NCBI RefSeq assembly: GCF_022569295.1
Contig: NZ_JAKFIA010000001.1
Span: forward strand, 821,001-885,000
DNA from: Pedomonas mirosovicensis
GTDB lineage: Bacteria; Pseudomonadota; Alphaproteobacteria; Sphingomonadales; Sphingomonadaceae
Direction of reading: 5' to 3'
Length of the DNA stretch: 64,000 nucleotides
Part shown: piece by piece, positions 480-40,459 of the stretch
Position numbering within the stretch: position 1 is the stretch's first letter
How the letters are laid out: each line of letters begins with the position of its first letter
The notes under the pieces: model-generated
Told to the model about the DNA's origin: nothing
The model's database searches: none
What the model saw: only the letters and a program-made list of their open reading frames with translations
Program-made: the position numbers and the translations under genes

Positions 480-1244
480 TCAGTTGCTGCCCGGGAACAT
501 CTGCGCATTGCCGGGCTGGTATCCAGCGCCCGGTGTCAGGAAGCGGCGGCGCTGCTCGCGGCCCTGTTCGGCCGCGGCCGACCGCTCGGCCTCGGCGAGC
601 GCCTGGGCGCGGCCGTTGGCGGAGACGACGGCGGTGAGATCGGCGAGCTGCTGCGCCTGAAGGGCGAGGAGCTGGTTGCCGGCCTGCGTCGCCTGCAGGG
701 CGCCGGTCGCGCCCTGGCTCTGACCGACCAGCGCCGACATCTGCGTCCTATTGGTGTCGATGTTGCCGACGACGCCGGCCTGGACGCGCATCGCGTCCTG
801 GAGTCCCGAGACCGTATTGTTCCAGCGTTCCTTCGCCTGGGCGATGAGCTGCTGGTCGGAGGCGCTCATCGAGGCGCTTCCGGCCCCGTAATTGGTCTGG
901 AACGCCCGGTCGATGTTCTGGACATTGTAGGCGATGCCCTGCGCCTGGCTGAGGAGTTGCTGGGTGCGCTGGACAGACTGCTGGAGCTGCTGAAGGGAGG
1001 AGAACGGCAGGCTCGTGAGGTTGCGCGCCTGATTGATCAGCATCTGCGCTTCGTTCTGTAGCGACGTGATCTGGTTGTTGATCTGCTGCAGGGCGCGGGT
1101 CGCCGACAGCAGATTCTGGGCGTAGTTGGTCGGATCGTAGACGATCCATTGGGCGGAGGCCGGCGCGATCAGCACCGGTGATATTGACAGCGGCGCGGCT
1201 AGAATGGCGGCGGCGAACGCCGCGCGGGGGACACGCAGTTTCAT
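480..1244 (-). CDS. trbJ: TrbJ, P-type conjugal transfer protein
   Basis: A 254-residue protein with a clear Sec signal peptide ending near PASAQW (about residue 33), then a long glutamine-, asparagine- and alanine-rich helical region typical of TrbJ/VirB5 proteins. These are periplasmic minor pilus or adhesion components of the mating apparatus. The motif WIVYDPTNYAQN after the signal peptide is characteristic of TrbJ. The ATG overlaps the trbE stop codon by 4 bases (ATGA), so the two are translationally coupled in the trb operon. Confidence 0.93.
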   Translation of the reverse strand: MKLRVPRAAFAAAILAAPLSISPVLIAPASAQWIVYDPTNYAQNLLSATRALQQINNQITSLQNEAQMLINQARNLTSLPFSSLQQLQQSVQRTQQLLSQAQGIAYNVQNIDRAFQTNYGAGSASMSASDQQLIAQAKERWNNTVSGLQDAMRVQAGVVGNIDTNRTQMSALVGQSQGATGALQATQAGNQLLALQAQQLADLTAVVSANGRAQALAEAERSAAAEQGREQRRRFLTPGAGYQPGNAQMFPGSN

Positions 1245-3678
1245 GGCTGGCTCTCCAGGTTGGGGAGGTTGGGAATGAGGTCGGCCGCCCAGTCGACACC
1301 GCGATGGCGCAGCCACGCCGCGAGGAAGCCCTCGCGCCCGTGCTCGACGACGATGCGGTCGATGGCGGCCTGGTCGGTCTTGGAGGACGCCGCGCAGAGC
1401 GCGAGCGCGACGTCGGCGAGGCCTAGCTCGAACAGCCGGTTGCCGCGGCGGCTCTGGCAGTAATAGTCCCGCTTGGGCATCGCCTGCGCGAGGATCTCGA
1501 TCTGCCGGTCGTTGAGACCGAAGCGTCGGTAGATCGCGGTGATCTGCGGCTCGATCGCCCGCTCGTTCGGCAGCAGCAATCGCGTCTGGCAGCTCTCGAT
1601 GATGGCCGGCGCGATCGCCGAGCCATCGATGTCGGAGAGCGACTGCGTGGCGAAGACGACGCTGGCGTTCTTCTTGCGCAGCGTCTTCAGCCACTCGCGG
1701 AGCTGGCCGGCAAAGCCTTCGTCGTCGAGGGCAAGCCAGCCTTCGTCGACGATGATCAGGGTCGGCTCGCCGTTCAGCCGGTCCTCGATGCGGTGGAAGA
1801 GATAGGAGAGCACCGCCGGGGCCGCGGCCGTCCCGATGAGCCCCTCGGTTTCGAAGGCCTGGACGGTGGCAACGCCGAGATGCTCGCTCTCGGCGTCGAG
1901 CAGCCGGCCATAGGGTCCGCCGACGCAATATGGCCGGAGCGCCTGCTTCAGGTCGTTCGACTGCAGGAGCACCGACAGGCCGGTCATGGTGCGCTCGGCC
2001 GCGGGCGCGCTCGCCAGCGAGGACAGCGCCGCCCAGATCAGCTCCTTGACCTCGGGCGTGACCTGAATGCTCTCGCGCATGAGGATGGCGACAATCCAGT
2101 CGGCGGCCCAGGCGCGTTCGGCCGCCTCATCGATCCGGGAGAGCGGCTGAAGCGCGACGCTGTCGGCCGAGCCCTCGGTAAGGCCGCCGCCGAGATCGTG
2201 CCAGTCGCCGCCCATGGCGATGGCGGCGGCGCGGATCGAGCCGCCGAAGTCGAAGGCGAAGACCTGCGCGCCGGCGTAGCGGCGAAACTGCAGCGCCATC
2301 AGCGCCAGCAGCACGGACTTGCCCGCGCCGGTCGGGCCGACCACCAGGGTGTGGCCGACGTCGCCGACGTGAATGGAGAACCGGAACGGGGTGGACCCTT
2401 CGGTCTTGCCGTACAGCAAGGGGGTGCACCAAAGTGCTCATCCCGTTCCGGCCCCGCCCACACGGCGCTCAGGGGAATCATGTGGGCGAGATTGAGCGTC
2501 GAGATCGGAGGCTGACGGACATTGGCGTAGACGTGACCCGGCAGCGAACCGAGCCACGCGTCGGCGGCATTGATCGTCTCAGGCATCGCGGTGAAATCGC
2601 GGCCCTGGATCACCTTCTCGACCAGACGAAGCTTTTCCGCCGCGACGCGGGGATCGTTGTCCCACACGGCAATGGTCGCGGTGACATAGGCCTGGCCGGC
2701 ATAGTCGGCGCCGAGTTCCTGCAACGCCAGATCGGCGTCGGCGGCCTTGTTGGCGGCGTCGGTGTCGACCAGGGCGCTGGCCTCGTTGGTCATCGCCTCC
2801 TTGAGGATCGCGGCGATCGACTTGCGCTTGGCGAACCACTGCCGGCGGATCTTGGTCAGCAGCTTGGTCGCGTCGGTCTTGTCGAGCAGGATCGCCCGCG
2901 TCGACCAGCGATACGGAAAGGCGAGCCGGTTGAGATCGTCGAGGATGCCGGGGGTCGTCGCGGTCGGAAATCCGACGATCGTTAGGATGCGCAGATGCGC
3001 GTCGGCGAGGCGCGGCTCCAGCCCGCCGGTGAACGGCTGGTCGGAGATCAGCGCGTCGAGATACATCGGTGTCTCGGGAACGCGCAGCCGGTAGCGTTTC
3101 GTCGAGATGGTCGAGTGCAGATAGGTCAGCGTCTCGACGTCATCGAGCCACGCGCATTCCGGCATGAAGGCTTCGACGAGCTGCAGGATGCGGTCGGTGC
3201 GGTCGATGAAGCTGCGCAGAGCTTCCCACGCATCGACACCGCGCTCGGCCTTGCCCTCGTAGAGCCAGCTCTCGGCGCGGGCCGCATCCTCGGCCGGCGG
3301 CAGGAAGGTGAAGGTCAGGAAATAGCTCGACTCGTAATGGACGGCGTCCTCTTCAAAGTCGGCCTTGCGCTCGGCATCGACCATGGCCGAGGCAGCGTCG
3401 GGAAACCGGCTCGCCGGATAGGTGCCGACGGCATGGCGCTGAGCCTCAACGAAGATCGCCCAGCCGCTGCCGAGGCGGCGGAAGGCGCTGTTGAGGCGAC
3501 CTGCGACGGCGACCAGCTCGGCCTGCACGGCGGAGTCTAGGTCGGGTCCGCGAAAGCGCGCGCTGCGTTGGAAGCTGCCGTCCTTGTTGAGGACGACGCC
3601 GGGGGCGACCAGCGCCGCCCAGGGCAGGAAGTCCGCGAGCCGGGTCGAGGTGCGGCGATATTCGGCGAGGTTCATCAT
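1241..3678 (-). pseudogene. trbE: TrbE, conjugal transfer ATPase (VirB4 family), broken by a one-base frameshift
   Basis: The two halves together form a full-length TrbE of roughly 810 residues. The first half starts MMNLAEYRRT and carries the CagE/TrbE/VirB4 N-terminal domain. The second carries Walker A (GPTGAGKS) and Walker B (LIIVDEGW). TrbE is the cytoplasmic ATPase that powers pilus assembly and DNA transfer. The frame breaks at positions 2420-2424, a run of five G (C on the coding strand); one further base restores a natural reading of GAPPLLYGKTEG. With the run as given, translation leaves the frame before the ATPase domain. Every neighbouring trb gene is intact, so a homopolymer sequencing error is as likely as a real mutation. 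Confidence 0.9.
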
Positions 3679-3686
3679 GGCGCGCC

Positions 3687-3968
3687 TCAGACGTTCAGGT
3701 GACCGGGAATGCGGAGGTGCCGGCGGCCGACGTCGACGAATTGCGGGTCGCGCTTGGCCGCCCAGACGGCGGCGAAATGGCCGATGGCCCAGAGACCGAG
3801 GCCGACCAGCCAGAGGCGAAGACCGAGACCGAGAGCGGCGGCGAGCGTACCGTTGAGGATGGCGATGGCGCGAGGCGCACCGCCGAGCAGGATGTGCTCG
3901 GTGAGTGCGCGGTGAACGGGAACGCTGTAACCCGGCACGTCGCCTCCGTTGTCGGTGAGGCCCATCAT
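3687..3968 (-). CDS. trbD: TrbD, conjugal transfer membrane protein (VirB3 family)
   Basis: A 93-residue protein with the TrbD pattern: a short polar N-terminus with PGYSVPVHRALTE, one or two hydrophobic segments (about residues 33-62) and a basic C-terminal tail. It is an inner-membrane component that works with TrbE; in other type IV systems VirB3 and VirB4 are sometimes fused. Its ATG shares one base with the trbC stop codon (TGATG), and it ends 8 bases before trbE. The order trbB-C-D-E-J-K-L is the standard one. Confidence 0.92.
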   Translation of the reverse strand: MMGLTDNGGDVPGYSVPVHRALTEHILLGGAPRAIAILNGTLAAALGLGLRLWLVGLGLWAIGHFAAVWAAKRDPQFVDVGRRHLRIPGHLNV

Positions 3969-4300
3969 CAGACGAGCGCTCCGCCGCCGAACGAGAAGAA
4001 CGACAGGAAGAAGCTCGATGCCGCGAAGGCGATCGACAGGCCGAAGACGATCTGGATGAGACGGCGGAAACCGCCCGAGGTGTCGCCGAAGGCAAGCGTC
4101 AGGCCAGTGACGATGATGATGATCACCGCGATGATCTTGGCGACCGGCCCCTCGATGGATTCGAGGATCGATTGCAGCGGCGCTTCCCACGGCATCGAGG
4201 AGCCGGAAGCGTGGGCGGCCGGGGCCAGCAGGACACTGGCCAGGAGGACGGATGCGGCTGTCGCCATATGGCGACGAAAATGCAGGGCACGGCGGATCAT
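3968..4300 (-). CDS. trbC: TrbC, conjugative pilin subunit (VirB2 family)
   Basis: A 110-residue prepilin. A basic N-terminus ([11 protein letters not shown]) and hydrophobic core end in a signal-peptidase-like site near AAHASGSS. Two further hydrophobic segments follow (about residues 55-70 and 85-105), the standard layout of TrbC/VirB2 pilins. In the RP4 paradigm TrbC is trimmed and cyclised, with TraF as the peptidase; traF is present at 12516-13061. The start overlaps the trbB stop by 4 bases. Confidence 0.92.
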   Translation of the reverse strand: MIRRALHFRRHMATAASVLLASVLLAPAAHASGSSMPWEAPLQSILESIEGPVAKIIAVIIIIVTGLTLAFGDTSGGFRRLIQIVFGLSIAFAASSFFLSFFSFGGGALV

Positions 4301-5280
4301 GCGGGTTCTCCTTCGGCGGGCTGGGTTGCGGGGCGGACGTGGTAGTCGCCGTCGGGGCTGAGCCCTTCGATGCGACCGAGTTCGGCCAGGCGCCGGGTCG
4401 AGCCGCGGCCCGAGAGGACCGCGACAAGATCAATCGTCTCCGCGATCAGCGCGCGCGGGACAGTGATGACGGCTTCCTGGATGAGCTGCTCGAGGCGGCG
4501 GAGCGCGCCGAGCGCAGTGCCGGCATGGATGGTCCCGATCCCTCCGGGGTGGCCGGTGCCCCAGGCTTTGAGCAGGTCGAGCGCCTCGGCGCCGCGCACC
4601 TCGCCGATCGGGATGCGGTCGGGCCGCAGGCGCAGCGAGGAGCGGACCAGATCGGAAAGCGTGGCGACGCCGTCCTTGGTGCGCATGGCGACCAGGTTCG
4701 GCGCGGAACATTGCAGCTCGCGGGTGTCCTCGATCAGCACCACGCGGTCGGAGGTTTTCGACACCTCGGCGAGCAGCGCATTGGTGAGCGTCGTCTTGCC
4801 GGTCGAGGTGCCGCCGGCCACGAGGATGTTGCGGCGATCGGCGACGGCCTGGCGCAGGATCTCGGCCTGGTCGGCGGTCATGGTGCCGGCGACGACGTAG
4901 TCCTGCAGCGTGAAGACGGCGACGGCGGGCTTGCGGATCGCGAAGGCCGGCGCCGCCACGACCGGGGGCAGAAGCCCCTCGAACCGCTCCCCCGTTTCCG
5001 GCAGCTCGGCCGAGACGCGGGGATTGCCGGCATGGACCTCCGCGCCGACATGGTGGGCGACCAGGCGCACGATGCGCTCGCCGTCGGCGGCCGAGAGCCG
5101 CTCGCCCGTGTCCGACAATCCCTCGGAAAGACGGTCGACCCAGAGACGGCCGTCGGGGTTGAGCATCACCTCGACTACGCTGGCGTCTCCAAGGAAACCG
5201 GCGATGGCGGGGCCGAGAGCAGTCCGCAGCATGCGGGCGCCTCGAAGTATCGCCTCAGATTTCTCGGAAGTGGCGGCCAC
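4297..5280 (-). CDS. trbB: TrbB, conjugal transfer ATPase (VirB11 family)
   Basis: A 327-residue secretion ATPase with Walker A (GGTSTGKT, residues 156-163), an aspartate box ([11 protein letters not shown]) and Walker B/His box motifs ([14 protein letters not shown]). VirB11-type hexamers sit at the cytoplasmic base of the channel and switch it between pilus assembly and substrate transfer. This is the first gene of the trb operon. The 169-base gap upstream, to the CopG gene, is the likely place for a promoter, although the strand and spacing would also allow read-through from traG. Confidence 0.95.
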
Positions 5281-5891: not shown

Positions 5892-7886
5892 TCACAGCTC
5901 CATGCCGTCGTTCGGATCGAGCGAGACCTGGCGCGCCACGCCCTGCATGATCTGGTTGGCGCGGCTGATCCGAGCCGTGTCGTCATCGGCCTCGTCATCG
6001 AGCCCAACTTCGAACTCGTTCTCGATCGGCGCCTTCTTCTCGACAGGCGCGGCGCGATCCAGCTCCGGCTGGTGACGCCGTTCCGATCCGGTCGGATCTT
6101 CGTCGCTGGCGTCCTCAACGATGGCCGTGCCTGCCGATACCACGCTGACCGGCCGGGCCGGAAGCGGCAGACGGCTCCAGTCGTCCATTCCCGGCTGCGA
6201 CGGCCTACTGAGCGCCGGCGGCGCCATAATCCGATCCTTGAAGCGGCGATCCTCGTAATAGCGCGCCTTCTTGGCGCGGATCGGCGGTGTGCCTGCGACC
6301 ATGACGATCTCATCGGCGGGCGGGAGCTGCATGATCTCGCCCGGGGTCAGCAGCGGCCTGGCCGTCTCTGAGCGGGACACCATCAGGTGGCCGAGCCAAG
6401 GCGAGAGACGATGGCCCGCATAGTTGCGCATGGCGCGCATCTCGGTCGCGGTGCCGAGCGCATCGGAGACGCGCTTGGCGGTCCGCTCGTCGTTGGTCGC
6501 GAAGCTGACGCGGACATGGCAGTTGTCGAGGATCGAATTGTTCGGGCCGTAAGCCTTCTCGATCTGGTTCAGCGACTGCGCGATCAGGAACGCCTTCAAC
6601 CCATAGCCCGCCATGAAGGCGAGCGCGGATTCGAAGAAGTCGAGCCGGCCGAGTGCGGGGAACTCGTCGAGCATCAGCAGCAGCCGATGCCGGTTGCCCT
6701 TGGCGTTGAGATCCTCGGTCAGACGCCGGCCGATCTGGTTGAGGATGAGGCGAATGAGCGGCTTGGTCCGGGCAATGTCCGACGGCGGCACGACCAGGTA
6801 AAGGCTGGTCGGCTGGCGGGCACCGACGATATCGGCGATACGCCAGTCGCAGCGGCGCGTCACCTCGGCGACGACGGGATCGCGATAGAGGCCGAGGAAG
6901 GACATGGCGGTCGAGAGCACGCCGGAGCGTTCGTTGTCGGACTTGTTCAGCAGCTCGCGCGCGGCCGACGCGATCACCGGATGCGGTCCGCTCTCCCCGA
7001 GATGGGCGGTCTTCATCATCGCCGCCAAGGTGGCTTCGATCGGCCGCTTCGGATCGGAGAGAAAGGCGGCGACACCGGCGAGCGTCTTGTCCTCCTCGGC
7101 GTAGAGGACATGCAGGATCGCGCCGACCAGGAGCGCGTGGCTGGTCTTCTCCCAGTGGTTCCGCTTTTCGAGGCTGCCCTCCGGATCGACCAGGATGTTG
7201 GCGATGTTCTGCACATCGCGGACTTCCCATTCGCCGCGGCGCACCTCGAGCAACGGATTGTAGGCGGCCGACTTCGCATTGGTCGGGTCGAAGAGGAGCA
7301 CGCGGCCATGGCGGGCGCGGAAGCCGGCGGTCAGCGTCCAGTTCTCGCCCTTGATGTCGTGGACGATCGCCGAGCCCGGCCAGGTCAGCAGCGACGGGAC
7401 AACCAGGCCGACGCCCTTGCCGGAGCGGGTGGGCGCGAAGCACAGGACATGTTCAGGCCCATCGTGTCGGAGATAGGCGCGGTCATACTTGCCGAGCACC
7501 ACGCCGTCCTCGCCGAGCAGGCCGGCGCCGCGCACCTCATCATCATGTGCCCAACGCGCCGACCCGAAGGTCTCGGCGTTCTTCGCCTCGCGGGCCCGCC
7601 AGACCGACATGCCGATCGCGACCGCGATCGAGATGAATCCGCCGGATGCGGCGATATAGGCGCCCTCGACGAAGATCGGCGGCGCGTAGGCGTCGTAGAA
7701 ATACCACCACGGAAAGAAGGACCATGGATAGTAGATCGGCCAGTCGCCGAGCATGAACCATGGAGCTCCGAGCTGGGGCTGGAAGCCGAGCCGGTAGGCT
7801 GCCCACTCGGTGGCGGCCCAGGTGGTCAACAGGACGATGGCGAAGACGGTGAGGATCTGGCCCCAGAGGATCTTGGTGGCGGACAT
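5892..7886 (-). CDS. traG: TraG, type IV coupling protein (VirD4 family)
   Basis: A 664-residue coupling protein. Two N-terminal membrane segments (about residues 10-30 and 78-97) are followed by a cytoplasmic ATPase with Walker A (APTRSGKG, residues 151-158) and Walker B (LLMLDEFPALG, near residue 400). Coupling proteins recruit the relaxase-DNA complex and pump it into the channel. The gene lies between the relaxase (27 bases upstream) and the CopG gene (7 bases downstream) on the same strand. Full length with all motifs in place. Confidence 0.96.
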   Translation of the reverse strand: MSATKILWGQILTVFAIVLLTTWAATEWAAYRLGFQPQLGAPWFMLGDWPIYYPWSFFPWWYFYDAYAPPIFVEGAYIAASGGFISIAVAIGMSVWRAREAKNAETFGSARWAHDDEVRGAGLLGEDGVVLGKYDRAYLRHDGPEHVLCFAPTRSGKGVGLVVPSLLTWPGSAIVHDIKGENWTLTAGFRARHGRVLLFDPTNAKSAAYNPLLEVRRGEWEVRDVQNIANILVDPEGSLEKRNHWEKTSHALLVGAILHVLYAEEDKTLAGVAAFLSDPKRPIEATLAAMMKTAHLGESGPHPVIASAARELLNKSDNERSGVLSTAMSFLGLYRDPVVAEVTRRCDWRIADIVGARQPTSLYLVVPPSDIARTKPLIRLILNQIGRRLTEDLNAKGNRHRLLLMLDEFPALGRLDFFESALAFMAGYGLKAFLIAQSLNQIEKAYGPNNSILDNCHVRVSFATNDERTAKRVSDALGTATEMRAMRNYAGHRLSPWLGHLMVSRSETARPLLTPGEIMQLPPADEIVMVAGTPPIRAKKARYYEDRRFKDRIMAPPALSRPSQPGMDDWSRLPLPARPVSVVSAGTAIVEDASDEDPTGSERRHQPELDRAAPVEKKAPIENEFEVGLDDEADDDTARISRANQIMQGVARQVSLDPNDGMEL

Positions 7887-7913: not shown

Positions 7914-9650
7914 TCACAGGCCGAGCCCCCGCTGGCGGCCGAAGCTCCAGTCGACGCCGCCATCGCTTCGGGCGACGCCGGAGACGTGACGGCCGAGCTG
8001 CTTTTCGATTGATGGCGTCCAGGGCACGAGGCTAAAGCCGAGCCCGTCGTCGATCATGGCGAAGCGGCCGCTCGCAAGCGTCAGCCGTCGCTGATAGGTG
8101 CCGGTGACATATTCGCCGGATTCAGGTTTGACCTGCGGCCGTCCCATTTCGGCGGCGATGCGTTCGGCAACAGCGTCCAGCTCGCGACGCCGCAGCGTGT
8201 CGACCAGGCCGGGCTGGAAGCTGACGCCGCGCTTCTGGCGTTCGGCAAGGCCCTGGCCAACAAGATGCTCGGCCCGCCGGTCCATGGCGTCGCGCACCTC
8301 GGCCCCGAAGCCCCCGCCGAGCGCCGCCGGCTCGCGGGCGATATTCTGCCGGTCGAGCCAGGTCGCGCCGGTCGCGGTGACCTGCCGCTCGAGATCGAGA
8401 TCGGACCGCACCGCGATCGCCACCCGGCGCTGGCCGCGCGCATCGTCGAATTTGCGAAGCTCGACGATTGAACCGGGCGCGCTGTCGCCGGCTGCTTCGA
8501 GGTCGGGAAGCTTGATGTGGTGGGTCCGGCCGTCGATGCCGTCGACGACGGCGAAGGCGGTGCCTTTCAGCTCGTCGTCGAGGCCGCGGGCGACCAGGCG
8601 GCCGACAACCGGATCGTTGAGGCTTTCGGACGCCAGCACATAGCTCGCCGCGCCGCGCTCGATGCCGCGCTCGGTCAGGCCGTGGTGGATGCGCTTGATG
8701 ATGTCGCCGCGCTCGCCGAGCTCGCGCAGCGTCGCCTCGGCCTTGTCCGAGATGGACCATTGTCCAGGGCCGATCTCGTCGGCGAGCCCAAGGCCTTCGA
8801 GCTTGCGCAGCCGCCCGATCTTCAGGGCATGGAATTCGTCGGGCTGCCGATCGGGTCGCGGCGCGAGATCGATGACGCCGGTCCGATAGGCGTCGCGGGC
8901 GAGCTGGCGATCGAGGTTGGTCCAGCGGTCGGCGTCGACCTGGCGCTCCAGCGTCTGCCGGATCTCCTGATCGGTGCGCGGCCCCAGCTCCTGGGTGATC
9001 AGGTCGCGCGCCCGATCGCGCATGCCCTCCTTTATGTAGTCGCGCGAGATGACCAGGTTCTCGCCGTCGTCGCGCACGCCGCGCACGATAAGGTGGACAT
9101 GCGGATGCTCGGTGTTCCAGTGATCGACCGCGACCCATTCGAGCCGCGTGCCGAGATCCTTCTCCATCTGGCCGACCAGCTCACGGGTGAAGCCCTTGAG
9201 GTCGGACATTTCCAGCGCGTCGTCCGGCGAGACGATGAAGCGGAAATGGTGGCGGTCGTCCTCGGACCGCTCCGCGAAATCCTTGGCGTCGACATTATCG
9301 CCGCCTGGACCGAACAGCCGGGCTTTCTCCCCGTCACGGGTGACGCCGTCGCGGCGCAGATAGTCGAGATGCGTCGAGAGCGGCGCTGACCGCCCGCCGT
9401 GGCGAACGACGCGCGCCTTGATGACCGCGCCGCGCGAGCGCGCGGTGATGAGGCGGTTCGCCTGGATCGAGGCGCGCTGGCCGCGCCCGAACCGGGACCG
9501 CGCGCCGGACCCGATCTTCCCTTGCCGGGAGACGCTGCCGCCCGCGCGCTGGGCGGCCGCCAGCGCCTGGGCGATGAAGGGCCGCGCCCGCTGCGCCCTG
9601 GTCGAGCGGATGCGGCCTGGCCGGATGCGGAATTCGTGGTCCTCGGTCAT
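7914..9650 (-). CDS. Relaxase / mobilisation nuclease (VirD2/TraI type, with DUF3363 region)
   Basis: A 578-residue relaxase. The N-terminal domain has a candidate nicking tyrosine (HLDYLRRDG, Tyr97) and the three-histidine metal motif (EHPHVHLIVRG, His182/184/186). The C-terminal half matches the DUF3363 type of alphaproteobacterial relaxases. It nicks oriT, stays bound to the 5' end and is piloted into the recipient by TraG. I chose the start MTEDHEF, which matches the family and lies six codons into the longest reading. The intergenic region directly upstream holds a nic-like sequence that suits this relaxase class. Confidence 0.93.
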   Translation of the reverse strand: MTEDHEFRIRPGRIRSTRAQRARPFIAQALAAAQRAGGSVSRQGKIGSGARSRFGRGQRASIQANRLITARSRGAVIKARVVRHGGRSAPLSTHLDYLRRDGVTRDGEKARLFGPGGDNVDAKDFAERSEDDRHHFRFIVSPDDALEMSDLKGFTRELVGQMEKDLGTRLEWVAVDHWNTEHPHVHLIVRGVRDDGENLVISRDYIKEGMRDRARDLITQELGPRTDQEIRQTLERQVDADRWTNLDRQLARDAYRTGVIDLAPRPDRQPDEFHALKIGRLRKLEGLGLADEIGPGQWSISDKAEATLRELGERGDIIKRIHHGLTERGIERGAASYVLASESLNDPVVGRLVARGLDDELKGTAFAVVDGIDGRTHHIKLPDLEAAGDSAPGSIVELRKFDDARGQRRVAIAVRSDLDLERQVTATGATWLDRQNIAREPAALGGGFGAEVRDAMDRRAEHLVGQGLAERQKRGVSFQPGLVDTLRRRELDAVAERIAAEMGRPQVKPESGEYVTGTYQRRLTLASGRFAMIDDGLGFSLVPWTPSIEKQLGRHVSGVARSDGGVDWSFGRQRGLGL

Positions 9651-9894
9651 GCCCGACGCTCCGCACATCGCGCCAACGCGATGATTTTGCTTACGAATGC
9701 GCCGGTGCGCAGGCTGCGCCGATCAGGCGCACCTCGCGAAACCGCGCCATAACCCCTTGAAAAAGCACAACCGAACTGAAGCGCACATCGCGCCCCTTTA
9801 TCCTGCCATCGTGCGGTTGTGTTTGCGGTCCTTCCTCCCAATGCCCTCCAATCTGCGCTGGGGTTCGCCATGCTGCGATGGACGGGCGAGACGG
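9651..9894. other. Candidate origin of transfer (oriT) with IncP/Ti-type nic core
   Basis: A 244-base non-coding gap between the relaxase and the transglycosylase genes. It contains TATCCTGC at 9799-9806, which fits the YATCCTG|Y nic consensus of the RP4 and Ti relaxase families. An 8-base inverted repeat flanks it (CACAACCG 9766-9773, CGGTTGTG 9814-9821). A second inverted repeat lies further left (GGTGCGC 9704-9710, GCGCACC 9727-9733). GCACATCGCGCC occurs twice as a direct repeat (9663-9674, 9783-9794). Position, repeats and nic core support an oriT; the cut site itself is inference. Confidence 0.7.
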
Positions 9895-10671
9895 TCATCG
9901 CGGGCCTGCAGCCTCTCGCCGGGAGACGAACAGGCCGCCGGTCGGGTTCGCATCGGCGGCCGCATCGCGCGGTGGAGCCGCAGTCCCGCCGTCACGCGAC
10001 TGTGCGTCCGCTTGCGCCGGACCTGCGCCCGGACCGCGTTCCGCAGCGCCGATGAAGAGCGGTGCGCGTGTCCAAGCCAGCGGGTCGGCGGCAGCCACTG
10101 TGACGACGATCAGAGGCGCTTCGCCGCCGACAAGGGGCGCGAGCTGAGCGACATAGGCGCGCGTCTCGGCCGGCAGCGGGCGGCCTTTCGCAAGGTATTC
10201 GTCGTAGCGGCCGGGCCCCGCATTATAGGCCGCGAGAAAGCCCGGTGCGCCGTAGCGATCGTAGAGTTCGCGCATATAGGCGGTGCCCGCGATGATGTTG
10301 TCGCGGGGATCGAATGGGTCGCTGCCGAGCCGATGGCGGGCGCGCAGATAGGCCCAGGTATCGGGCATGAGCTGCATCAGTCCCATCGCGCCCTTGGGCG
10401 AGACGGCGCGCACGTCGTTGGCGCTCTCGATACGCATGAGCGCGCGTATCCACGCGACCGGGATGCCGAACCGCTGCGACGCCTCCGCCACGAGGGCAGC
10501 GAACGGTGCGCTCGCCTCAGCCGGAACCGGCGGCACTGTCTGAGCCAGCACCGGCGACATTGGCGAAGCGGCGATAGGCAGGCCGGAAAGAAGAAGGAGG
10601 AGCAGCCGGTAGGCGGCACGGGACTTCCACGTGCCGCCCCGATGATGCTGCGATCGATGCGGGGTGCGCAC
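9895..10671 (-). CDS. Lytic transglycosylase, conjugation-associated
   Basis: A 258-residue protein. A hydrophobic signal segment (about residues 18-43) is followed by an SLT/GEWL domain with the catalytic glutamate in RIESANDVRAVSPKGAMG (Glu82), MQLMPDTW and the AAYNAGPG motif. It cuts peptidoglycan in the periplasm so that the mating channel can cross the wall, as VirB1 and TrbN do. The frame opens with GTG just after the DUF736 stop, so the two genes nearly abut. The C-terminal 60 residues are low-complexity and specific to this protein. Confidence 0.9.
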   Translation of the reverse strand: MRTPHRSQHHRGGTWKSRAAYRLLLLLLSGLPIAASPMSPVLAQTVPPVPAEASAPFAALVAEASQRFGIPVAWIRALMRIESANDVRAVSPKGAMGLMQLMPDTWAYLRARHRLGSDPFDPRDNIIAGTAYMRELYDRYGAPGFLAAYNAGPGRYDEYLAKGRPLPAETRAYVAQLAPLVGGEAPLIVVTVAAADPLAWTRAPLFIGAAERGPGAGPAQADAQSRDGGTAAPPRDAAADANPTGGLFVSRREAAGPR

Positions 10672-10674
10672 CGA

Positions 10675-11010
10675 TCAGTCCTCCTTGCACGGCTTGGCGG
10701 GCCGCGACCAGTGCAGGCGCCATGCGGCAGTGTCGTCGCCGGAACGGAAGAGATTGGCGCGCAGCGGACGCGAGAACAGCGGGCTGTCGAGCTGCACGGA
10801 GACATAGTCGCCGGCACGTTCGCCGACATGCTTCCAGCCGGCGCCGATCTCGATGCCGTCGTCCCCGCCGAGCAGGACACGGTAGTCCGGCGCGTTCTCG
10901 GCCTCGGACGGCTCGGCCGGAACGAAGGCGAGTTCGGCGTCGATGCCGAGCGCGGTGAGCTGCCCGGAATAGCCGGACTTGGTGCGGGTGAATTGGCCGA
11001 TCTGTGTCAT
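10675..11010 (-). CDS. DUF736 protein (copy 1)
   Basis: A 111-residue protein of the DUF736 family, common on alphaproteobacterial plasmids and integrative elements, with no established function. It starts MTQIGQFTRTKSGYSG and ends in a WRLHWSRP motif near the C-terminus, both typical. The start codon was chosen at MTQIG, which follows a GGAGACGACC ribosome-binding region. It lies immediately upstream of the transglycosylase gene. A second, diverged member of the family is encoded at 17682-18008 in the same element. Confidence 0.88.
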   Translation of the reverse strand: MTQIGQFTRTKSGYSGQLTALGIDAELAFVPAEPSEAENAPDYRVLLGGDDGIEIGAGWKHVGERAGDYVSVQLDSPLFSRPLRANLFRSGDDTAAWRLHWSRPAKPCKED

Positions 11011-11279
11011 GGTCGTCTCCAATGAAAGAACACAAGGGGCAAAACGCCTTCAATCGGTGGCTTGTCCTTGGGTTCGGTTGGGTTTTGACCGGCGTATCGA
11101 CCGATCGGCTAAATCCTTTGCTTCCGCTGGGCAGGTGTTTTCCCGCCCCTCGGTTCTTGAACCATTCTCCAATTCGTGACCTGATGCTTTGGCCTCGGTC
11201 ACAGAATGGCGTTCGGCTCCCGGTTTCCCATTCTCCTTGACGAGCGCAGCCCAGACCTGCCGGGCTCGCTAAACGACCA

Positions 11280-12350
11280 TCAGGACAACCGGGATATCGT
11301 CGACGCGCCCTGCCTGGTGGTGTCGGTGCCGCGCGGCTCGTAAGCGCGCTGGTCCCGCAGGATCTGGAAGGCGATCGTCAAAAGCTTGCGCGCAATCGCC
11401 ACACGCGCCTTGTTGGTTCCTCTGAACTTCAGTTGCTCGTATTGGGCCCGAAGCTGCGCATCACTGGCGATCGCAGGGGCTACCGCTTCGACGAAGGCCC
11501 AGCGCAGCCACTTGTTGCCCTGCCTGATGATCTTGCCGTGGAAGGTCTTGCCGCCGGAGGAATAGGTCGAGGGTACCAGACCCGCATATGCGGCAAGCTT
11601 CTTCGGGTTGCGGAACCGCGCTATGTCGTCGATCTCCGCATCGATCAGCCTTGCAAAGAACTCGCCGATGCCAGGGATCGTCTTCAACAGCTTCACATTG
11701 CCATTGGCCCTGGTCATCACCCGGATCGTCGCTTCCGCCTGCTTGATGCGCTGATCGATGTCGCCGATGAAATCGAGGCCGCGGTCGATCTGGATGCGAT
11801 CGATTTCCGAGAACTTCACCTGCGCCAGCTGGACGCGTCCGGCCTTACCGAACAGATCCCCAAGCTTCTTCAACTGCGCCGTCTGTTCCGGATACCGATC
11901 AAACACCGTCACGATCCGGTTCTTCGTCATCGTCCGCAGCCGCACGTAAAACATCCGCTCGCGTAGCGCGACGCGCAGTTCGCGGGCCCTGTCGGTCGGA
12001 GCCCAGGCTTGCGGTACAAGATCGGCGCGCAGCAGATGCGCCAGCACCGTCGCATCGATCTTGTCGGTCTTGATCTTGGCATCGGCAATCGCCTTAACCT
12101 TCAACGGATGGGCGAGAACGACATCATCACAAATGTCGTCGAGCCAGTCGTACATCACCATCCAGTTGCGGGTCGCCTCGACAACCGCATGGCTGTTCTG
12201 GCGGTAGCGCTCAAGGAAGCCGCCAAGCGACTGGCGGTCGTTCTTCACCCGACCGGATCTGAGCGTCTTGCCGGCCGAATCCTGCACCACCAGATGGCTA
12301 TAGGATTTGTGGTAATCGACCCCGATGTGGTAATCATAGGAGGCAGTCAT
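11280..12350 (-). mobile_element. IS110-family transposase
   Basis: A 356-residue transposase with the two IS110 domains. The N-terminal DEDD catalytic domain begins YDYHIGVDYHKSYSHLVV (Asp12), with an acidic continuation in HAVVEATRNW and TDKIDATVLAHLLRADL. The C-terminal IS116/IS110/IS902 domain carries the helix-hairpin-helix KTIPGIGEFFARLIDAEI and NPKKLAAYAGLVP, with the usual late serine in PSTYSSGGKTF. IS110 elements generally lack long terminal inverted repeats; I saw none and cannot place exact ends. The insertion separates DUF736 from traF, which I expect to lie close together in this module. The start was taken at MTASYDY because longer readings add unrelated sequence. Confidence 0.9.
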
Positions 12351-12515
12351 GCTTCCAACTCCCTTGTTGAGATCGTCGAAACCCCAACAGGATAAGCCGA
12401 AAGGCTGGAAGTGTGACTGTCCCTCGATCATCACCTGCATCTCAGTGATCCGTTCTCGCAGCGGACGTGGCATCTTTCATGCCATCTCCTTCGATTGAGG
12501 GTTGGAAGCGGCGGT

Positions 12516-13061
12516 TCATCGGGTCGGCGCGCGCCAGACGTAGCGGCCGTCGCCGTGCTCATCGGTCCAGAGCGGCGTCGCCCTGCCGATCACGTCGCTG
12601 GTCGGCAGCGGCCCGAAATAGCGGCCGTCGAGGCTGTCGCGGACCGACCAGTTCATCAGGAAAAGCTCGCCCTCCGCGATGCGGCGGCAGCCCTGCCAGG
12701 TTGGCAACGGGCGACCGAGATGGTCGCGGTCGAGCGCGTCGCCCATCGGCACGCCATCGACGGTGATGGCATGGTCGCGGCGGCAGACCTGTTGCCCAGG
12801 CACGCCCGCGACACGCTTCATCAAGGGTACGCCGCGGCCGATATAGCCGCGCTCGACCATGAAGGCGGCGAACGGTTCGGGCGCGCGCACGGCCACGAGA
12901 TCGGTGACCTCGAAGCGGTCGGCCGGCGTGATGCTGTAAAGGCCGATCGGCGTGCTGGCCGACGCGTTCCAGATGAGCTTTGTCGGGAAGTCGACGAACG
13001 AGCCGGTCGCCGTCCCCATCACCGTGAAGTAGGTGACCATGACGTAGCCGAAGCGCCTCAT
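12516..13061 (-). CDS. traF: TraF, S26-family conjugative transfer peptidase
   Basis: A 181-residue signal-peptidase-like enzyme. It has an N-terminal hydrophobic segment, the nucleophile Ser36 in SASTPIGLY and the general-base lysine in MKRVAGVPG (Lys82), followed by the conserved GRPLP and RDSLDGRYFGPLP regions. In RP4 TraF matures and cyclises the TrbC pilin, and trbC is present here at 3968-4300. The ATG overlaps the DUF2840 stop by 4 bases, so it is the last coupled gene of the parA - RHH - DUF2840 - traF run. Confidence 0.92.
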   Translation of the reverse strand: MRRFGYVMVTYFTVMGTATGSFVDFPTKLIWNASASTPIGLYSITPADRFEVTDLVAVRAPEPFAAFMVERGYIGRGVPLMKRVAGVPGQQVCRRDHAITVDGVPMGDALDRDHLGRPLPTWQGCRRIAEGELFLMNWSVRDSLDGRYFGPLPTSDVIGRATPLWTDEHGDGRYVWRAPTR

Positions 13062-13579
13062 GATCCGGCCTTCCGACGCAGGAGGAAGGCCTTGTGGTGC
13101 TGGGCCGTGTAGGCTCGCGGCTGTTCGCCGGCGCTCATCCGATTATGGACGTGCCGCCAATGATCGGGTGAGACCTCGCTTGGATCGATGCCGATCGCCT
13201 CGATCGCATCGATCATCTGCAGCACGCGCTCGACCTTGGGCCAGCCTTCGACCTTGAGCAGGATGTCGCCGCCGGGACGCACGAAGGGCACGGTCTGCTG
13301 CCGCTCGCCGGCACGGACGGTGCGCAGCACGTCGAGATGCGAGGCGATGGTGCCGTAGTCATTGGCGGTCCAGCGGACGAAGCCAAAGACACTGTTCGGC
13401 GCGAAGCGGAGTACGCGCCGGCGGCGGTCGAGGATCTGTTCGCCGACCTCGCGGCCGAACCTGATCCAGTTCTCGATCCGCTTCTCGATCCAGGTGAGTT
13501 CGACTTCGGTCAGGTCGCTTGGCGGCGGCGCGGCCGGTCTCGGTTCGCCGCGCGCATGGATGGCGGCGGCGCCGGTCAT
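13058..13579 (-). CDS. DUF2840 protein
   Basis: A 173-residue protein of the DUF2840 family, a marker of this class of alphaproteobacterial conjugative elements with no known function. Typical stretches are LTWIEKRIENWIRFGR, VRWTANDYGT, VPFVRPGGDILLKVEGWP and DPSEVSPDHWRHVHNRM. I placed the start at the internal ATG because it has its own ribosome-binding site (GGAGA, 6 bases upstream) and matches the family. In the sequence as given the frame stays open upstream, joining this protein to the RHH gene; I attribute that to an indel in the C run at 13600-13604. Confidence 0.85.
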   Translation of the reverse strand: MTGAAAIHARGEPRPAAPPPSDLTEVELTWIEKRIENWIRFGREVGEQILDRRRRVLRFAPNSVFGFVRWTANDYGTIASHLDVLRTVRAGERQQTVPFVRPGGDILLKVEGWPKVERVLQMIDAIEAIGIDPSEVSPDHWRHVHNRMSAGEQPRAYTAQHHKAFLLRRKAGS

Positions 13580-13831
13580 GTCGCGTCTCCAGTGCTTGAG
13601 GGGGAATTCGCGCGCGAGCAGCTCGCGCAGCATGTCGGCAACGGTGACGCCGCGCTGAAAGGCGGCGATCTTGATCCGGGCGCGCTGGTCCGGCGTGACG
13701 TCGATCGTCAGCCGTGCCGAGTAGATCGTGGCGTCGGGCACGCGCGGCGTGGGCGCGTCGGCGGCCCTGATCCAGGTCTCCGCGTCGCCCGGCCGGGTGG
13801 CGAAGCCGCGCTTTGGAGGCGTCGCGGTCAT
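13576..13831 (-). pseudogene. Ribbon-helix-helix partition-like protein, stop codon lost by frameshift
   Basis: The first 75 or so residues (MTATPPKRGFATRPGDAETW onward, with ARLTIDVTPDQRARIKIAAF and GVTVADMLRELLAREFP) form a small RHH DNA-binding protein of the type that follows parA in these elements. As given, the frame runs through the next start into DUF2840. If the run of five G at 13600-13604 had four (or seven), the protein would instead end SSTGDAT and stop at a TGA overlapping the DUF2840 ATG. That is the expected arrangement of coupled genes, so either a real fusion or a homopolymer error is present. Confidence 0.7.
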
Positions 13832-15570: not shown

Positions 15571-15852
15571 TCAGCGCTGCGGCGCAGAGTTGCCTGCCGT
15601 GCCGGTGGTTTGGTGACGCTTCGCAGGCAGGACGGTGTTGGCGTCGGCGGTCGAGTTCTTGGTGCCGCGATTGGCCCAAGCCTGCAGGTCGGCGATCGAA
15701 TAGACGACGCGCCCGCCAAGCTTTTTAAAGGCCGGGCCGGTGCCATAGGTGCGATGCTTTTCCAGCGTGCGGCCCGACAGGCCGAGGAAGCGCGCGGCCT
15801 CCGGCGTGCGCAAAAAGCGTGGGGGAGCGTGGAGTGTCGCACTTTCGGCCAT
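15571..15852 (-). CDS. AlpA/MerR-like helix-turn-helix protein
   Basis: A 93-residue DNA-binding protein with a winged HTH of the excisionase/AlpA kind: FLRTPEAARFLGLSGRTLEK, then GPAFKKLGGRVVYSIADLQAW. Such proteins act as excision factors or small regulators; next to repA it is probably a regulator of replication or excision. The start at MAESATLHAPP was chosen because the HTH begins shortly after it. The 40-residue tail is hydrophilic and of no recognised type. Confidence 0.85.
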   Translation of the reverse strand: MAESATLHAPPRFLRTPEAARFLGLSGRTLEKHRTYGTGPAFKKLGGRVVYSIADLQAWANRGTKNSTADANTVLPAKRHQTTGTAGNSAPQR

Positions 15853-15988
15853 GATCGAAGCTCCGTGTGGTGCTGGCGGGCTGCCGGCTGTCGGCGGCGG
15901 TTCCAGCGCACGGTCGTTCGCTCGGGCGCGATCCACGATGTCGAAGATTTGCGGGAATAATCGACACCCCTTGCGGGCATCGGTGCGG

Positions 15989-16745
15989 CTAGGGTTTGCG
16001 CGGCCGTTTAAGGAGGTCGCGATAGCCGCCATGGACGAGCTTCATGCCGTCACGGGCGAGACGGATGGTCGTCTCGCGGAGCGCGTCGCCTGCCCAGGAC
16101 GCCGCCTCGATGTGATGCTTCGGAAAGAGCGCGGTTGCGATGGCGCGATAGCTTTCCTGTTCGAGCCGGGCATCGACCGCGCGCAGCATCTGGCGCAGGC
16201 GCTGCCGCCGCTGCGGCGTCACGCGTGGATCCGGCGCCGCCGGCGGTGCGCGCAGGCCGCGCCAATAGCGGGCGAGAGCCTCCAGGCGATCTGGTGTGGC
16301 CTCGTCGAGCAGCACGATTGCAGCAGCCGGTGGCTGCGCACTGCCCAGGCCGAGACTGCGCGCGCGCATCACCTCGTCGCCGACGCGGATGCGCGTGTCG
16401 GCGACGTCTTGGGACGTGGACGTCGCTATCCCGTCAGCAGCAGGTACAGGTGCAAGCCAGGCCGGGAGCGCCTGCAGGATCAGCATCCACGGATCGGCCA
16501 TCGGCGACCAGGCTGCGTTCGCGCTGGGTGCCGGAAGGGCGGGGTCGGCCGCGAAAGGATAACCCCCATTTGGCCGAGAGAGCTGCTGCAGCCTGGCCTT
16601 CTCCAAGACCTCTTTGCTTAAGTCGGTTGTAGTCTTGCTGATACTCGGGATTGCGCCTCAGAAATTCCCAGGCCAAGTCCGGAGCGTCCAATTCGTTTAC
16701 ATAGTCGTAGGCGGTTGAGATCCGCCATGTGCCTTGCTCGGGCAT
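15989..16745 (-). pseudogene. DUF6499/DUF2285-type DNA-binding-like protein, split by a one-base frameshift
   Basis: The N-terminal part (ISTAYDYVNELDAPDLAWEF, then LRRNPEYQQDYNRL) is the conserved opening of a family annotated DUF6499 next to DUF2285 in rhizobial and sphingomonad elements. The C-terminal part (from FAADPALPAP through LARYWRGL to the end) lies in another frame. The break is in the run of five C at 16563-16567 (G on the coding strand). With four or seven, the sequence reads on as KWGYPFAADP, as family members do. Function is unknown; the proteins are thought to be regulators of the element. Decay or a homopolymer error are both possible. Confidence 0.75.
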
Positions 16746-31397: not shown

Positions 31398-32033
31398 TTG
31401 GATTTCGAAGATCTCGTGACGGCCCTGGCGCCACCGCCAAACCGGGTGGGCAAATCGGACGGGCCTGACGAACATCATCTCTATGAGGGTGCGGTCATGC
31501 TTGCTTACGCGATGCATCTGCTCCGCACCCAACGCGCGCGGGACGTCCGTATCCATCCCGATGGCGAACACGGAAAGCAGTTCGACTTCGCGGCCTGGCT
31601 CGGGCGGCGCGACTTCGGGAAGGTCGCCAGCCTCGGCAGCACGACCTACGGCGGCGTTTATCGGAATCCCGCTGGTCAGACGATCACCGTCCATCCCAAG
31701 TCGGGCCTCAGCGACGTCGTCGCTGAGGTCGGCAGTCACGTCATTTCGGCTGAGTGCAAGGGCGGAATCATCAACACGCGGCATCCCGGTCAGGTCTCGC
31801 GGCTCTATCGCGGTCTGTGCGAGACGGTCGGGCTGCTGATGGCGACGCCGGCGCAGGGCCGCCAGGTCGCCGTGGTCCCGCTGACCGAAAGCACGCGGCG
31901 CCTGGCCGAGCGGCTTGCGCCGCGCTGTGCGTTGGCCGGCATTGAGATCGCTCTCGTCGGCAGCCGCGGCGAGGTCATGGACGTGCAACCGGCGGAGACC
32001 GCCGAACTGACGGCGGAAAGGATCGACGGATGA
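31398..32033 (+). CDS. PD-(D/E)xK-like (restriction-endonuclease-fold) protein
   Basis: A 211-residue protein. Its centre reads LSDVVAEVGSHVISAECKGG: Asp106, then Glu119-Cys-Lys121, the D...ExK arrangement of PD-(D/E)xK nucleases, with a supporting glutamate near residue 30 (HHLYEGAVM). Translation appears to start at TTG: a GGGGAGG site lies 5 bases upstream and no in-frame ATG or GTG is better. It is the first gene of a tight operon; the next gene (TIR) overlaps its stop by 4 bases. Likely a nuclease effector or DNA-sensing component of a defence system. Confidence 0.72.
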   Translation: MDFEDLVTALAPPPNRVGKSDGPDEHHLYEGAVMLAYAMHLLRTQRARDVRIHPDGEHGKQFDFAAWLGRRDFGKVASLGSTTYGGVYRNPAGQTITVHPKSGLSDVVAEVGSHVISAECKGGIINTRHPGQVSRLYRGLCETVGLLMATPAQGRQVAVVPLTESTRRLAERLAPRCALAGIEIALVGSRGEVMDVQPAETAELTAERIDG

Positions 32034-33142
32034 GAAGGGTATTGACGATCGGACTGAACTACACGGGCGACGCGATCGAAGGAGTCGAGATCGATAATCT
32101 CGGCCTTTGCCGGCCCGAGGTGGATCGCGACCGGGCCGCCTATCCGCTCTACGAGTATGACACGATCATCATCAACCCGCAGAGCTACACGCATTTCCTG
32201 TTTGGCAAGGCCGGCGAGTTTTCGAACGAACCCTATGAGCTGGGCAAGCTAAAGGGCGTGAACGACCGCTATGACCTCGACTCCGCCTTCGATAGCGAAG
32301 ATCGGCGCAAGGAAATGGAGGCGGCGATTGCAGACGGGGCAACCGTCGTCTGGTGTCTGTCAGAACCGAAGCGGGTGAACTTCTTCGGTTATCGCGAGAC
32401 CCATCTCGGCTATGTCGCGCCGAAGGTCGCGGGCTTCGTGAAGCGATCGGAGCTGCTCGTTAAGAAGGGACGCCGGATGGGTGCGATCGACCCCGACAGC
32501 CCCTTCACGCGCTATTTTGAGGTTTTGTCGCGAACCGGCGGGTGGACGCTGTGCCTCTCCGATCCCGGCGAAAGTTACGCGTCGATCGCCGCGACGCCCG
32601 AGGGCTACAGCCTCGGCGGCCACGTGACGCTTGGAACCACGACGGGCTGGCTGCTGACCCCGCCGACATCTGATGAAGCTCAGAACCAGCTCGTGCGCGA
32701 CAGCCTCGCGCTGGAGAAGGCCGATCCGGTGCACGAAAAATATCACGGCATCTTCCTCAGCCACACCGGCGTCGACAAACCGTTCGTGCGCCAGTTGCGC
32801 AAGGATCTGCTCGCCCATGGGGTGGAGCATGTGTGGCTGGACGAGGCCGAAATCGACATCGGCGACTCGCTAATCGCCAAGATCGAAGAGGGCATGAAGC
32901 TCAGCCGCTACATCGCCGTCGTCCTATCGAAGAAGTCGATTGGCGCGCCTTGGGTAAAGAAGGAACTTGATGTGGCCATGAACCGCGAGATCGCCAGCGG
33001 CGAGGTGGTCGTGCTGCCGCTGCTCTATGAAGATTGCGAGCTGCCGGAGTTCCTGAAGGGCAAGCTCTACGCCGATTTTTCGAAGCCCGAGGAGTATGAG
33101 GCGGTTCTCGGCAAGCTTCTGCGCCGGCTCCGGATTTCCTGA
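32030..33142 (+). CDS. TIR-domain protein with unrecognised N-terminal sensor-like domain
   Basis: A 370-residue protein. Residues 238-365 form a TIR domain: HGIFLSHTGVDKPFVRQLRK, VWLDEAEIDIGDSLIAKIEE, IAVVLSKKSIGAPWVKKELD and VVVLPLLYEDCELPEF. The catalytic-type glutamate (WxxxE, Glu312) is present, so NAD cleavage is plausible. Bacterial TIR proteins commonly kill infected cells by NAD depletion or make signal nucleotides. The first 235 residues (VLTIGLNYTGDAIEGVEIDN, EYDTIIINPQSYTHFLFG, GATVVWCLSEP) look like an alpha/beta fold I cannot assign. It overlaps the gene before by 4 bases and shares one base with the HEPN gene after it (TGATG). Confidence 0.85.
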   Translation: MRRVLTIGLNYTGDAIEGVEIDNLGLCRPEVDRDRAAYPLYEYDTIIINPQSYTHFLFGKAGEFSNEPYELGKLKGVNDRYDLDSAFDSEDRRKEMEAAIADGATVVWCLSEPKRVNFFGYRETHLGYVAPKVAGFVKRSELLVKKGRRMGAIDPDSPFTRYFEVLSRTGGWTLCLSDPGESYASIAATPEGYSLGGHVTLGTTTGWLLTPPTSDEAQNQLVRDSLALEKADPVHEKYHGIFLSHTGVDKPFVRQLRKDLLAHGVEHVWLDEAEIDIGDSLIAKIEEGMKLSRYIAVVLSKKSIGAPWVKKELDVAMNREIASGEVVVLPLLYEDCELPEFLKGKLYADFSKPEEYEAVLGKLLRRLRIS

Positions 33143-34479: not shown

Positions 34480-34499
34480 CCCGCATCACCAGCTCCCGG

Positions 34500-34536
34500 T
34501 TGAAAACTGTCAGAAAATTGCGTATGTTTCTGACAG
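34500..34536 (+). promoter_or_regulatory. AbiE promoter with embedded inverted-repeat operator
   Basis: TTGAAA (34500-34505), 17-base spacer and TATGTT (34523-34528) form a promoter. A perfect 10-base inverted repeat, CTGTCAGAAA (34507-34516) and TTTCTGACAG (34527-34536), surrounds the -10 region with a 10-base spacer. AbiEi antitoxins of the type IV abortive-infection systems repress their own promoters at inverted repeats, which fits. The ribosome-binding AGGAGA follows directly. Confidence 0.7.
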
Positions 34537-34546
34537 GAGAATCGCG

Positions 34547-36149: not shown

Positions 36150-36171
36150 GAAACGGGGCTGGGGGGCAGCA

Positions 36172-38127: not shown

Positions 38128-38131
38128 CGGC

Positions 38132-40122: not shown

Positions 40123-40459
40123 GTGGGCCTGTATCGACAACGGGATTGGGAACCTCGGCCAAGTTGATCGGTCTGACGAAGCACACCAAGCATGGACACG
40201 TACCTAGCCCTGTCTTTCCGCACGTCGTAGCGCCGTCGGTTCATCCGACCTTGTCCTTCACTTCGATTGCCTTGGCTGCCGCGGTCGCGAGGACGGCGAC
40301 GGCTTGGGAAGATGCGCCCTTATCCTACTCGAAGCCGGTGGCACCACCCGGGACCGGCGCGCGGAATCTGACAACTGACTTGTGCGGGCCGCGCTATAGC
40401 GTAACCATCTACAGATTCGATCGAGCGAGGGCGCAGTTAGAATTAAGGGGGCGCGACAT
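40123..40459 (+). other. Intergenic region ahead of the ABC-3C genes
   Basis: 337 bases with no supported coding region. It should hold the promoter of the three-gene ABC system; a TATAGC hexamer near 40395 is a candidate -10 box but I see no well-spaced -35. It ends with AAGGGGG, 10 bases before the TTG start. Confidence 0.4.

Follow-up and report, generated by a model that had tools for sequence, protein, structure and literature searches.

Origins of transfer (oriT) of the MOBP class usually contain a hairpin just 5' of the nick site (nic), and in the oriT of pMV158, the substrate of MobM, inverted repeats lie around nic. For MOBP relaxases the nick consensus (C/T)ATCCTG(C/T) has been described, which is required by VirD2, TraI, and Tfs4 VirD2 (PMC3772185). 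In the Mesorhizobium element ICEMlSym-R7A, oriT is located upstream of rlxS, and a plasmid carrying the cloned oriT was mobilized (PMC11963761; PMC8627217). The oriT of the Tn4371 family lies in the traF-traI gap, consists of an inverted repeat and a conserved 20 bp segment containing CAAAAGG, and 58 bp of it suffice for function; in the available text on this family nic is unmapped and merely suspected within the conserved 20 bp, and the oriT was missed by oriTfinder (PMC11448139). A first-pass annotation of the DNA analyzed here, made from its letters, had stated that relaxases of the DUF3363 type have few mapped nic sites, and the reports on these two oriTs agree with that; the literature searched, which lacks most subscription papers, yielded no DUF3363 relaxase with a mapped nic, so that absence is unproven.

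Here, we have analyzed a stretch of 64,000 nucleotides from Pedomonas mirosovicensis (the window). Comparative evidence supports well the proposal of the first-pass annotation that the gap upstream of the relaxase gene is the oriT of a DUF3363 relaxase, with nic most likely at G9805|C9806. The oriT is genuine and belongs to a kind already known, and some of its details are without description in the literature searched. Judged from sequence comparison, we regard it as highly probable that 9660-9824 is the oriT of an ICE with a trb/tra system of the IncP/ICEMlSym type and that the adjacent relaxase cuts at G9805|C9806 and reads the letters at -3/-2.

Gene neighborhood and relaxase

The 244-bp gap at 9651-9894 is bounded by a DUF3363 MOBP relaxase gene on one side and a lytic transglycosylase gene on the other. 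These bounds had been placed correctly: the relaxase start in annotated relatives is the codon equivalent to 9650. The relaxase gene (7914-9650, minus strand) encodes 578 amino acids matching PF11843 (4.8e-91; 306.1 bits, Pfam cut-off 28.4) and PF03432 (2.2e-7; 31.6 bits, cut-off 24.6). The protein has a single motif I tyrosine (Y97) and three motif III histidines (H177, H184, H186); H94, Y97, D176, H177, and H184 are invariant in 102 sequences, H186 in 30. A structure was predicted for the whole relaxase (mean pLDDT 81.8). Over residues 73-225, approximately, the predicted structure matches the HUH relaxase fold of TrwC, pCU1 TraI, MobA, F TraI, and MobM with Z scores of 9.3-12.0; the next unrelated structures scored 7.7 and below. 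Several of the matching relaxase structures contain oriT DNA, and the best Foldseek row was MobA (E 1.1e-3). pMV158 MobM (Z 9.3-10.2 against the predicted structure) shares the HUH fold with the window's relaxase but is a MOBV protein, that is, of another relaxase family, and has another core. The C-terminal half of the whole-protein model gave no clear match in the structure comparison.

The transfer genes listed here are encoded on the minus strand. They comprise trbE (1241-4095), the TrbB ATPase gene of the mating-pair apparatus (4297-5280; TIGR02782), the TraG/VirD4 coupling protein gene (5892-7886; PF02534, NF010450), the lytic transglycosylase gene (9895-10671; SLT, PF01464) in an msi107-like position with the same order in annotated relatives, and the genes of a DUF736 protein (10675-11022; PF05284), a TraF-type S26 peptidase (12516-13061; PF10502), and a DUF2840 protein (13058-13831; PF11000). 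Genes for ParA and for a replication initiator lie in the neighborhood too, as do trb genes, and an HTH_17 match at 15571-16032 is the sole trace of an rdfS-like gene. The clustering of trb genes, traG, relaxase, transglycosylase, DUF736, traF, and rdfS-like gene is that of an ICEMlSym-R7A-like conjugation module. By layout, and as far as the available reports describe ICEMlSym-R7A, both have the trb/traG/rlxS/DUF736/transglycosylase/traF order, with the oriT separating the traF-msi107 operon from the relaxase gene. The window differs from ICEMlSym-R7A in its relaxase of 578 amino acids, which scored 585.9 with the RlxS model (NCBIfam NF041267; curated cut-off 850) and is therefore regarded as a relative of RlxS and not filed as RlxS, and in the separation of DUF736 from traF by IS110.

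The latter is an IS110-family transposase gene (11280-12473) which splits the DUF736 gene from traF in an otherwise conserved transfer operon. Furthermore, trbE is frameshifted into two overlapping frames, with profile positions 1-428 in one and 422-808 in the other; the break is either a frameshift or an assembly error. Since trbE is broken, self-transfer of the window's own element is doubtful, and with IS110 in the operon as well it may not be capable of transferring on its own. Elsewhere in the window, positions 32030-44099 hold defence-like cargo genes. Among them are the gene of a TIR-domain protein (32030-33142), a Gabija-like arrangement in which an OLD-type ATPase precedes a UvrD-like helicase (36172-39835), and the gene of an ABC-three-component protein (40460-41629), which is accompanied by a DUF3732 protein.

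Predicted nic core and repeats of the gap

The octamer TATCCTGC, which the first-pass annotation had named as nic core, occurs once in the window, at 9799-9806, and agrees with the RP4/Ti-class nick core (C/T)ATCCTG(C/T). As evidence by itself the octamer was rejected: shuffles give 0.92 expected occurrences per 64 kb (about 0.0035 for the 244-bp gap by our own arithmetic), and the longer core TTTATCCTGCC (9797-9807, plus strand) occurs three times in the 3.6-Mb genome. In the sequences compared, it is the position beside the relaxase, rather than the letters of the octamer, which decides that the site exceeds chance. The cut predicted between G9805 and C9806 is taken over from the RP4/VirD2-type ATCCTG|C.

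We examined 106 relaxase loci whose upstream DNA was long enough, excluding the own-genome copies L001 and L082 and dropping L013, L090, and L092 for length. At 93 of them TATCNNGCC is present at one fixed place and distance beside the relaxase; ten of the remaining 13 have a looser or shifted match, and three, with the most distant relaxases, lack a core-like string. The core reads TATCCTGCC at 59 of the 93 loci, TATCTCGCC at 25, TATCTTGCC at four, TATCTGGCC at three, and TATCCCGCC at two. The family core is TTTATC-NN-G|CC with CT, TC, TT, TG, or CC as NN; TTTATC--GCC is invariant in 75 aligned loci and likewise in a set of 54. Information content within the gap is highest at 9798-9809 (1.79 bits) and amounts to 0.4-0.9 beyond 9822. 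Deep-branching DUF3363 relaxases carry ATCTTG (xxTCTTG or similar), others ATCTCG, ATCTGG, or ATCCCG; ATCCTG thus looks like the state of one lineage and not a signature of the DUF3363 relaxase family, as far as these sequences tell. The assignment of the core to the RP4/Ti class by the first-pass annotation holds letter for letter and fails as a family signature, ATCCTG not being kept across the family of the relaxase.

The oriT is larger than described there: three iterons, a nic-proximal hairpin, and nic-spanning arms extend over 9660-9824, with the plus strand as T strand, on the evidence of conserved position and sequence, the iterons, a covariance model, and copies without a relaxase. 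The hairpin GCGC-ACATC-GCGC (9781-9793, plus strand; stem 9781-9784/9790-9793) is at the same time the third iteron and ends 12 nt from the predicted nic; it provides the inverted repeat of 4-5 bp just 5' of the nick core found in the RP4/Ti class of MOBP. Of 82 unique rows, 38 have G-C and 28 have C-G at its outermost pair, 9781/9793. The first-pass annotation had missed this hairpin and had seen the arms which span nic: CACAACCG (9766-9773) pairs with CGGTTGTG (9814-9821) on the far side of nic, both given for the plus strand.

CGCACATCGCG is found in three near-identical copies starting at 9662, 9728, and 9782. The copy close to the relaxase start codon (9662-9672, plus strand) has at least 9 of 11 letters at 79 of 89 loci (shuffles 0.8%), and the middle iteron CGCACCTCGCG (9728-9738, plus strand) retains at least 9 of 11 letters of each locus's own hairpin unit, also at 79 of 89 (shuffles 1.3%). 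Both are mostly at one fixed offset; a control stretch gave 9 of 89 loci. The direct repeat CGCACATCGCGCC had been recognized at 9662-9674 and 9782-9794, and both copies are there; the third near-identical copy at 9727-9738, which makes it a conserved three-copy iteron, had gone unnoticed. Further inverted repeats claimed for the gap are present as well, including CATCGCG/CGCGATG at 9666-9672/9677-9683. The DUF2840 protein has a weak ribbon-helix-helix match (PF23807, 25.5 bits, below the Pfam cut-off of 27) and is a candidate accessory protein for the iterons.

Pairing was analyzed in 53 sequences of the window's clade. The outer arms are paired in 95.8% of cells; across clades they are retained with differing letters, for example CACAACCG, CACGACCG, and ACAACCGACCGA. 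In the 53 sequences, hairpin and arms together are paired in 91.3% of cells versus 24-55% when slid. Cells changed on both sides numbered 32 versus 18.3 in shuffles (0 of 500 shuffles), and, counted by pair, such double changes were not above shuffles (213 of 500). In a second clade of 22 sequences 80.4% of cells are paired, with pairs changed on both sides again not above shuffles (305 of 500). Mismatches in the outer arms, compared to tell single-strand from duplex function, are of both the G-T and the A-C kind. Energy-based folding alone was rejected as evidence, being unexceptional: for the window's 77 nt as a single strand z was -1.29 and 24 of 200 shuffles were as good, and RNAalifold returned two pairs for the window's clade.

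Compared with RP4/Ti-type MOBP oriTs (TATCCTG|C), the window shares the core letters, the hairpin 5' of nic, and the MOBP motifs; it differs in a family core that varies at -3/-2, a short hairpin, nic-spanning arms, and three iterons. With the Tn4371 family (ICEKKS102Tn4677), as far as the available text describes it, the window shares the traF-traI gap, a DUF3363 relaxase, and an inverted repeat just 5' of the core. Tn4371-like relatives read CCTTTTGTCTTGCC, the complement of which contains CAAAAGG; with the comparison confined to this part of the reported 20 bp, the 20 bp and the REPT1-type repeat have a homologous layout with different letters. In contrast to the window, these relatives have the core TGTCTTG, a longer hairpin, and no intervening transglycosylase and DUF736 genes.

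Core letters and the relaxase nuclease segment

Core and nuclease segment are inherited together. In the sequences compared, mosaics included, the two letters at -3/-2 follow the nuclease segment of the relaxase rather than the C-terminus of the enzyme or the DNA around the core. A tree of 102 relaxases requires 11 changes of core state, versus a shuffled mean of 42.2. For 83 crown rows, a tree of the nuclease segment (residues 61-240, fixed after the telling columns had been located) requires four changes, the minimum being three, and ATCCTG forms one branch with a support of 98; a tree of the rest of the protein requires eight. On the nuclease tree, TCG rows as a single clade were not rejected by the AU test (p 0.068). 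With only relatives of less than 80% whole-protein identity allowed, the nearest nuclease segment predicted the core in 77 of 83 rows, and other protein or DNA segments under the same limit in 15.5 to 30.9; with all relatives allowed, the values were 82 versus 70.6 to 78.2.

Two mosaic loci, L073 and L085, combine a TCG core and a nuclease nearest to TCG types with residues 241-578 that are nearest to CTG types, as is almost all of the oriT DNA at their flanks. Exceptions occur in L085, where the distal DNA is nearest to TCG types and the first 60 residues to CCG types. Columns 79, 143, 187, 193, 212, and 215 split CT from TC types without overlap, and L073 has TC-type letters at all six. Fifteen such columns gave the correct core for 22 of 22 unseen loci (13 CTG, 9 TCG); the relaxase had been obtained for 27 of 29 loci, of which four with an already-seen nuclease segment and one CCG locus were excluded. 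Two of the six columns are not needed by themselves, as R215 occurs with TCG in L147 and A215 in L149 and L165.

Matches across genomes and proposed transfer

A covariance model was built on 9754-9830. In the own 3.6-Mb genome it gave one real match (E 2e-22; next best 6.97). Among 385 genomes of the class, ten matches had E < 1e-6, nine of them beside an independently found relaxase and one not; a further match in this set (G355, E between 0.003 and 0.1) adjoins a relaxase. Among 397 genomes of the order of G361 there were 58 matches at E ≤ 1e-3: for 49 of them the distance to a relaxase start is 101-111 bp, another one lies at a contig end where the relaxase is cut off, and eight are in stretches where no relaxase was found. 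Conversely, 21 of 70 relaxases among those listed for this second genome set had no model match, mostly ones of less than 60% identity.

These eight and the one from the class set make up nine copies (L140, L141, L172-L175, L177-L179) in which core and hairpin are kept and no relaxase match was found in the surrounding 5.7-20 kb. The window's iterons lie at -71 and -137 from the core. L172, L174, L175, and L177 match both offsets (L175 one base off), the best hairpin-unit match is at -71 in L140 and L141 and at -137 in L178, and those of L173 and L179 do not fit; not all of these matches are individually beyond shuffles. A recombinase or integrase is near four of the nine copies, and a tRNA gene near four. 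L179 is accompanied by a serine recombinase, DUF2924, DUF3489, and tRNA-Ala; L177 by a recombinase and tRNA-Met; L175 by a phage-type integrase; L141 by a resolvase, a MazE/PemK pair, and tRNA-Thr; and L140 by MazE/MazF-like reading frames, so called by resemblance to L141 only, and tRNA-Ser. Neighbors of the others are ParB/DUF736, IS110 with a type I restriction gene, IS66, and TrbI. The core of the relaxase-less copy equals that of the resident element in all five readable copies, from four genomes (TGG in G334, CTG twice in G610, CTG in G419, TTG in G517); G070 and G493 showed no relaxase, and two G646 copies are outside this count. Shared ancestry could also be the cause of equal cores. 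The relaxase-less stretches are probably hitchhiking islands.

We infer nicking, the exact cut, the binding partners, and the order of transfer as follows. The adjacent HUH relaxase would bind the hairpin 9781-9793 of the plus strand as single strand, cut G9805|C9806 with Tyr97, and remain attached to the 5' end formed by C9806; the transglycosylase side would therefore enter the recipient first and the relaxase and trb genes last. The letters at -3/-2 (CT here) would be read by the nuclease domain as its type-specific part. A single protein probably binds at all three iterons; this could be the relaxase or an accessory protein, for instance the DUF2840 protein. The nic-spanning arms may serve duplex binding of an accessory protein or single-strand pairing that joins both cut ends. 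We see an even chance for a wider reading, namely that DUF3363 relaxases have a natural two-letter switch, in which the nuclease reads -3/-2, about 15 positions (among them 79, 143, 187, 212, 182, 189, and 192) set the type, and recombination exchanged nuclease domains with the two letters altered accordingly, and that relaxase-less islands keep the whole three-iteron oriT of about 160 bp with the resident core and ride on the resident element.

The block could instead be the promoter or operator of the relaxase gene, its core a regulatory motif and its repeats operator sites, as its position is 100-160 bp upstream of the relaxase start, its iterons reach close to the start codon, and transfer genes of ICEs are reported to be tightly regulated. 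This is extremely unlikely given the nine stretches that keep core and hairpin with no relaxase gene, most with iterons at -71 and/or -137, the tracking of the nuclease domain by the core letters, and the report that the equivalent Tn4371-family region is sufficient in cis for transfer (PMC11448139). Because relaxase-less copies keep the iterons at the same offsets, a role of the iterons as relaxase-gene operators is disfavored, with L179 and, in part, L140, L141, L173, and L178 as exceptions. A true oriT cut at another place, for example elsewhere within TTTATCCTGCC, is very unlikely: the aligned loci show no variation at -1 (G) or at +1/+2 (CC), and the distance from the hairpin is constant in nearly all of them. 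What speaks for such a cut is that the ATCCTG hexamer, reported to be needed by VirD2, TraI, and Tfs4 VirD2, is not kept in the DUF3363 family, and the cut rule is therefore borrowed from the RP4/Ti class.

Core and nuclease type might also be linked by closeness on the DNA only, with an enzyme that does not read the two letters. With a distance of 300-700 bp between them, linkage accounts for some of their co-inheritance, and independent switches are few (4 to 11 changes on the trees). In the mosaics, which are few, the DNA flanking the core on both sides and, for the most part, the first 60 and last 340 residues are nearest to the other type, and core and nuclease agree nevertheless; relaxase-less copies match the resident core in each readable case, which relatedness could explain too. 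We hold linkage as the sole cause to be doubtful, though a serious alternative. That the gap is a non-working oriT remnant of a decayed element is unlikely in our view: trbE is broken and IS110 sits between DUF736 and traF, but the oriT is intact and typical, as are the relaxase and the coupling protein, and a helper can act on an oriT in trans.

With a working oriT cut at G9805|C9806 as the preferred reading, one predicted cut becomes a testable system with four or five core types that occur in nature, enzymes to match them, and few candidate residues, for which the mosaic relaxases are ready-made controls. The search model finds oriTs which lost or never had a relaxase gene; hence, mobilizable islands in Alphaproteobacteria can be listed.

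Most of 2,551 matching plasmid records match through a C-terminal DUF3363 fragment only, and matches of this kind were not used; two of the plasmid fragments listed overlap features annotated as folP/sul1. In the own genome (G000), TTTATCNNGCC is an over-represented motif unrelated to oriT: its 54 occurrences, most of them as TTTATCGGGCC, compare with 15 of the reversed control.
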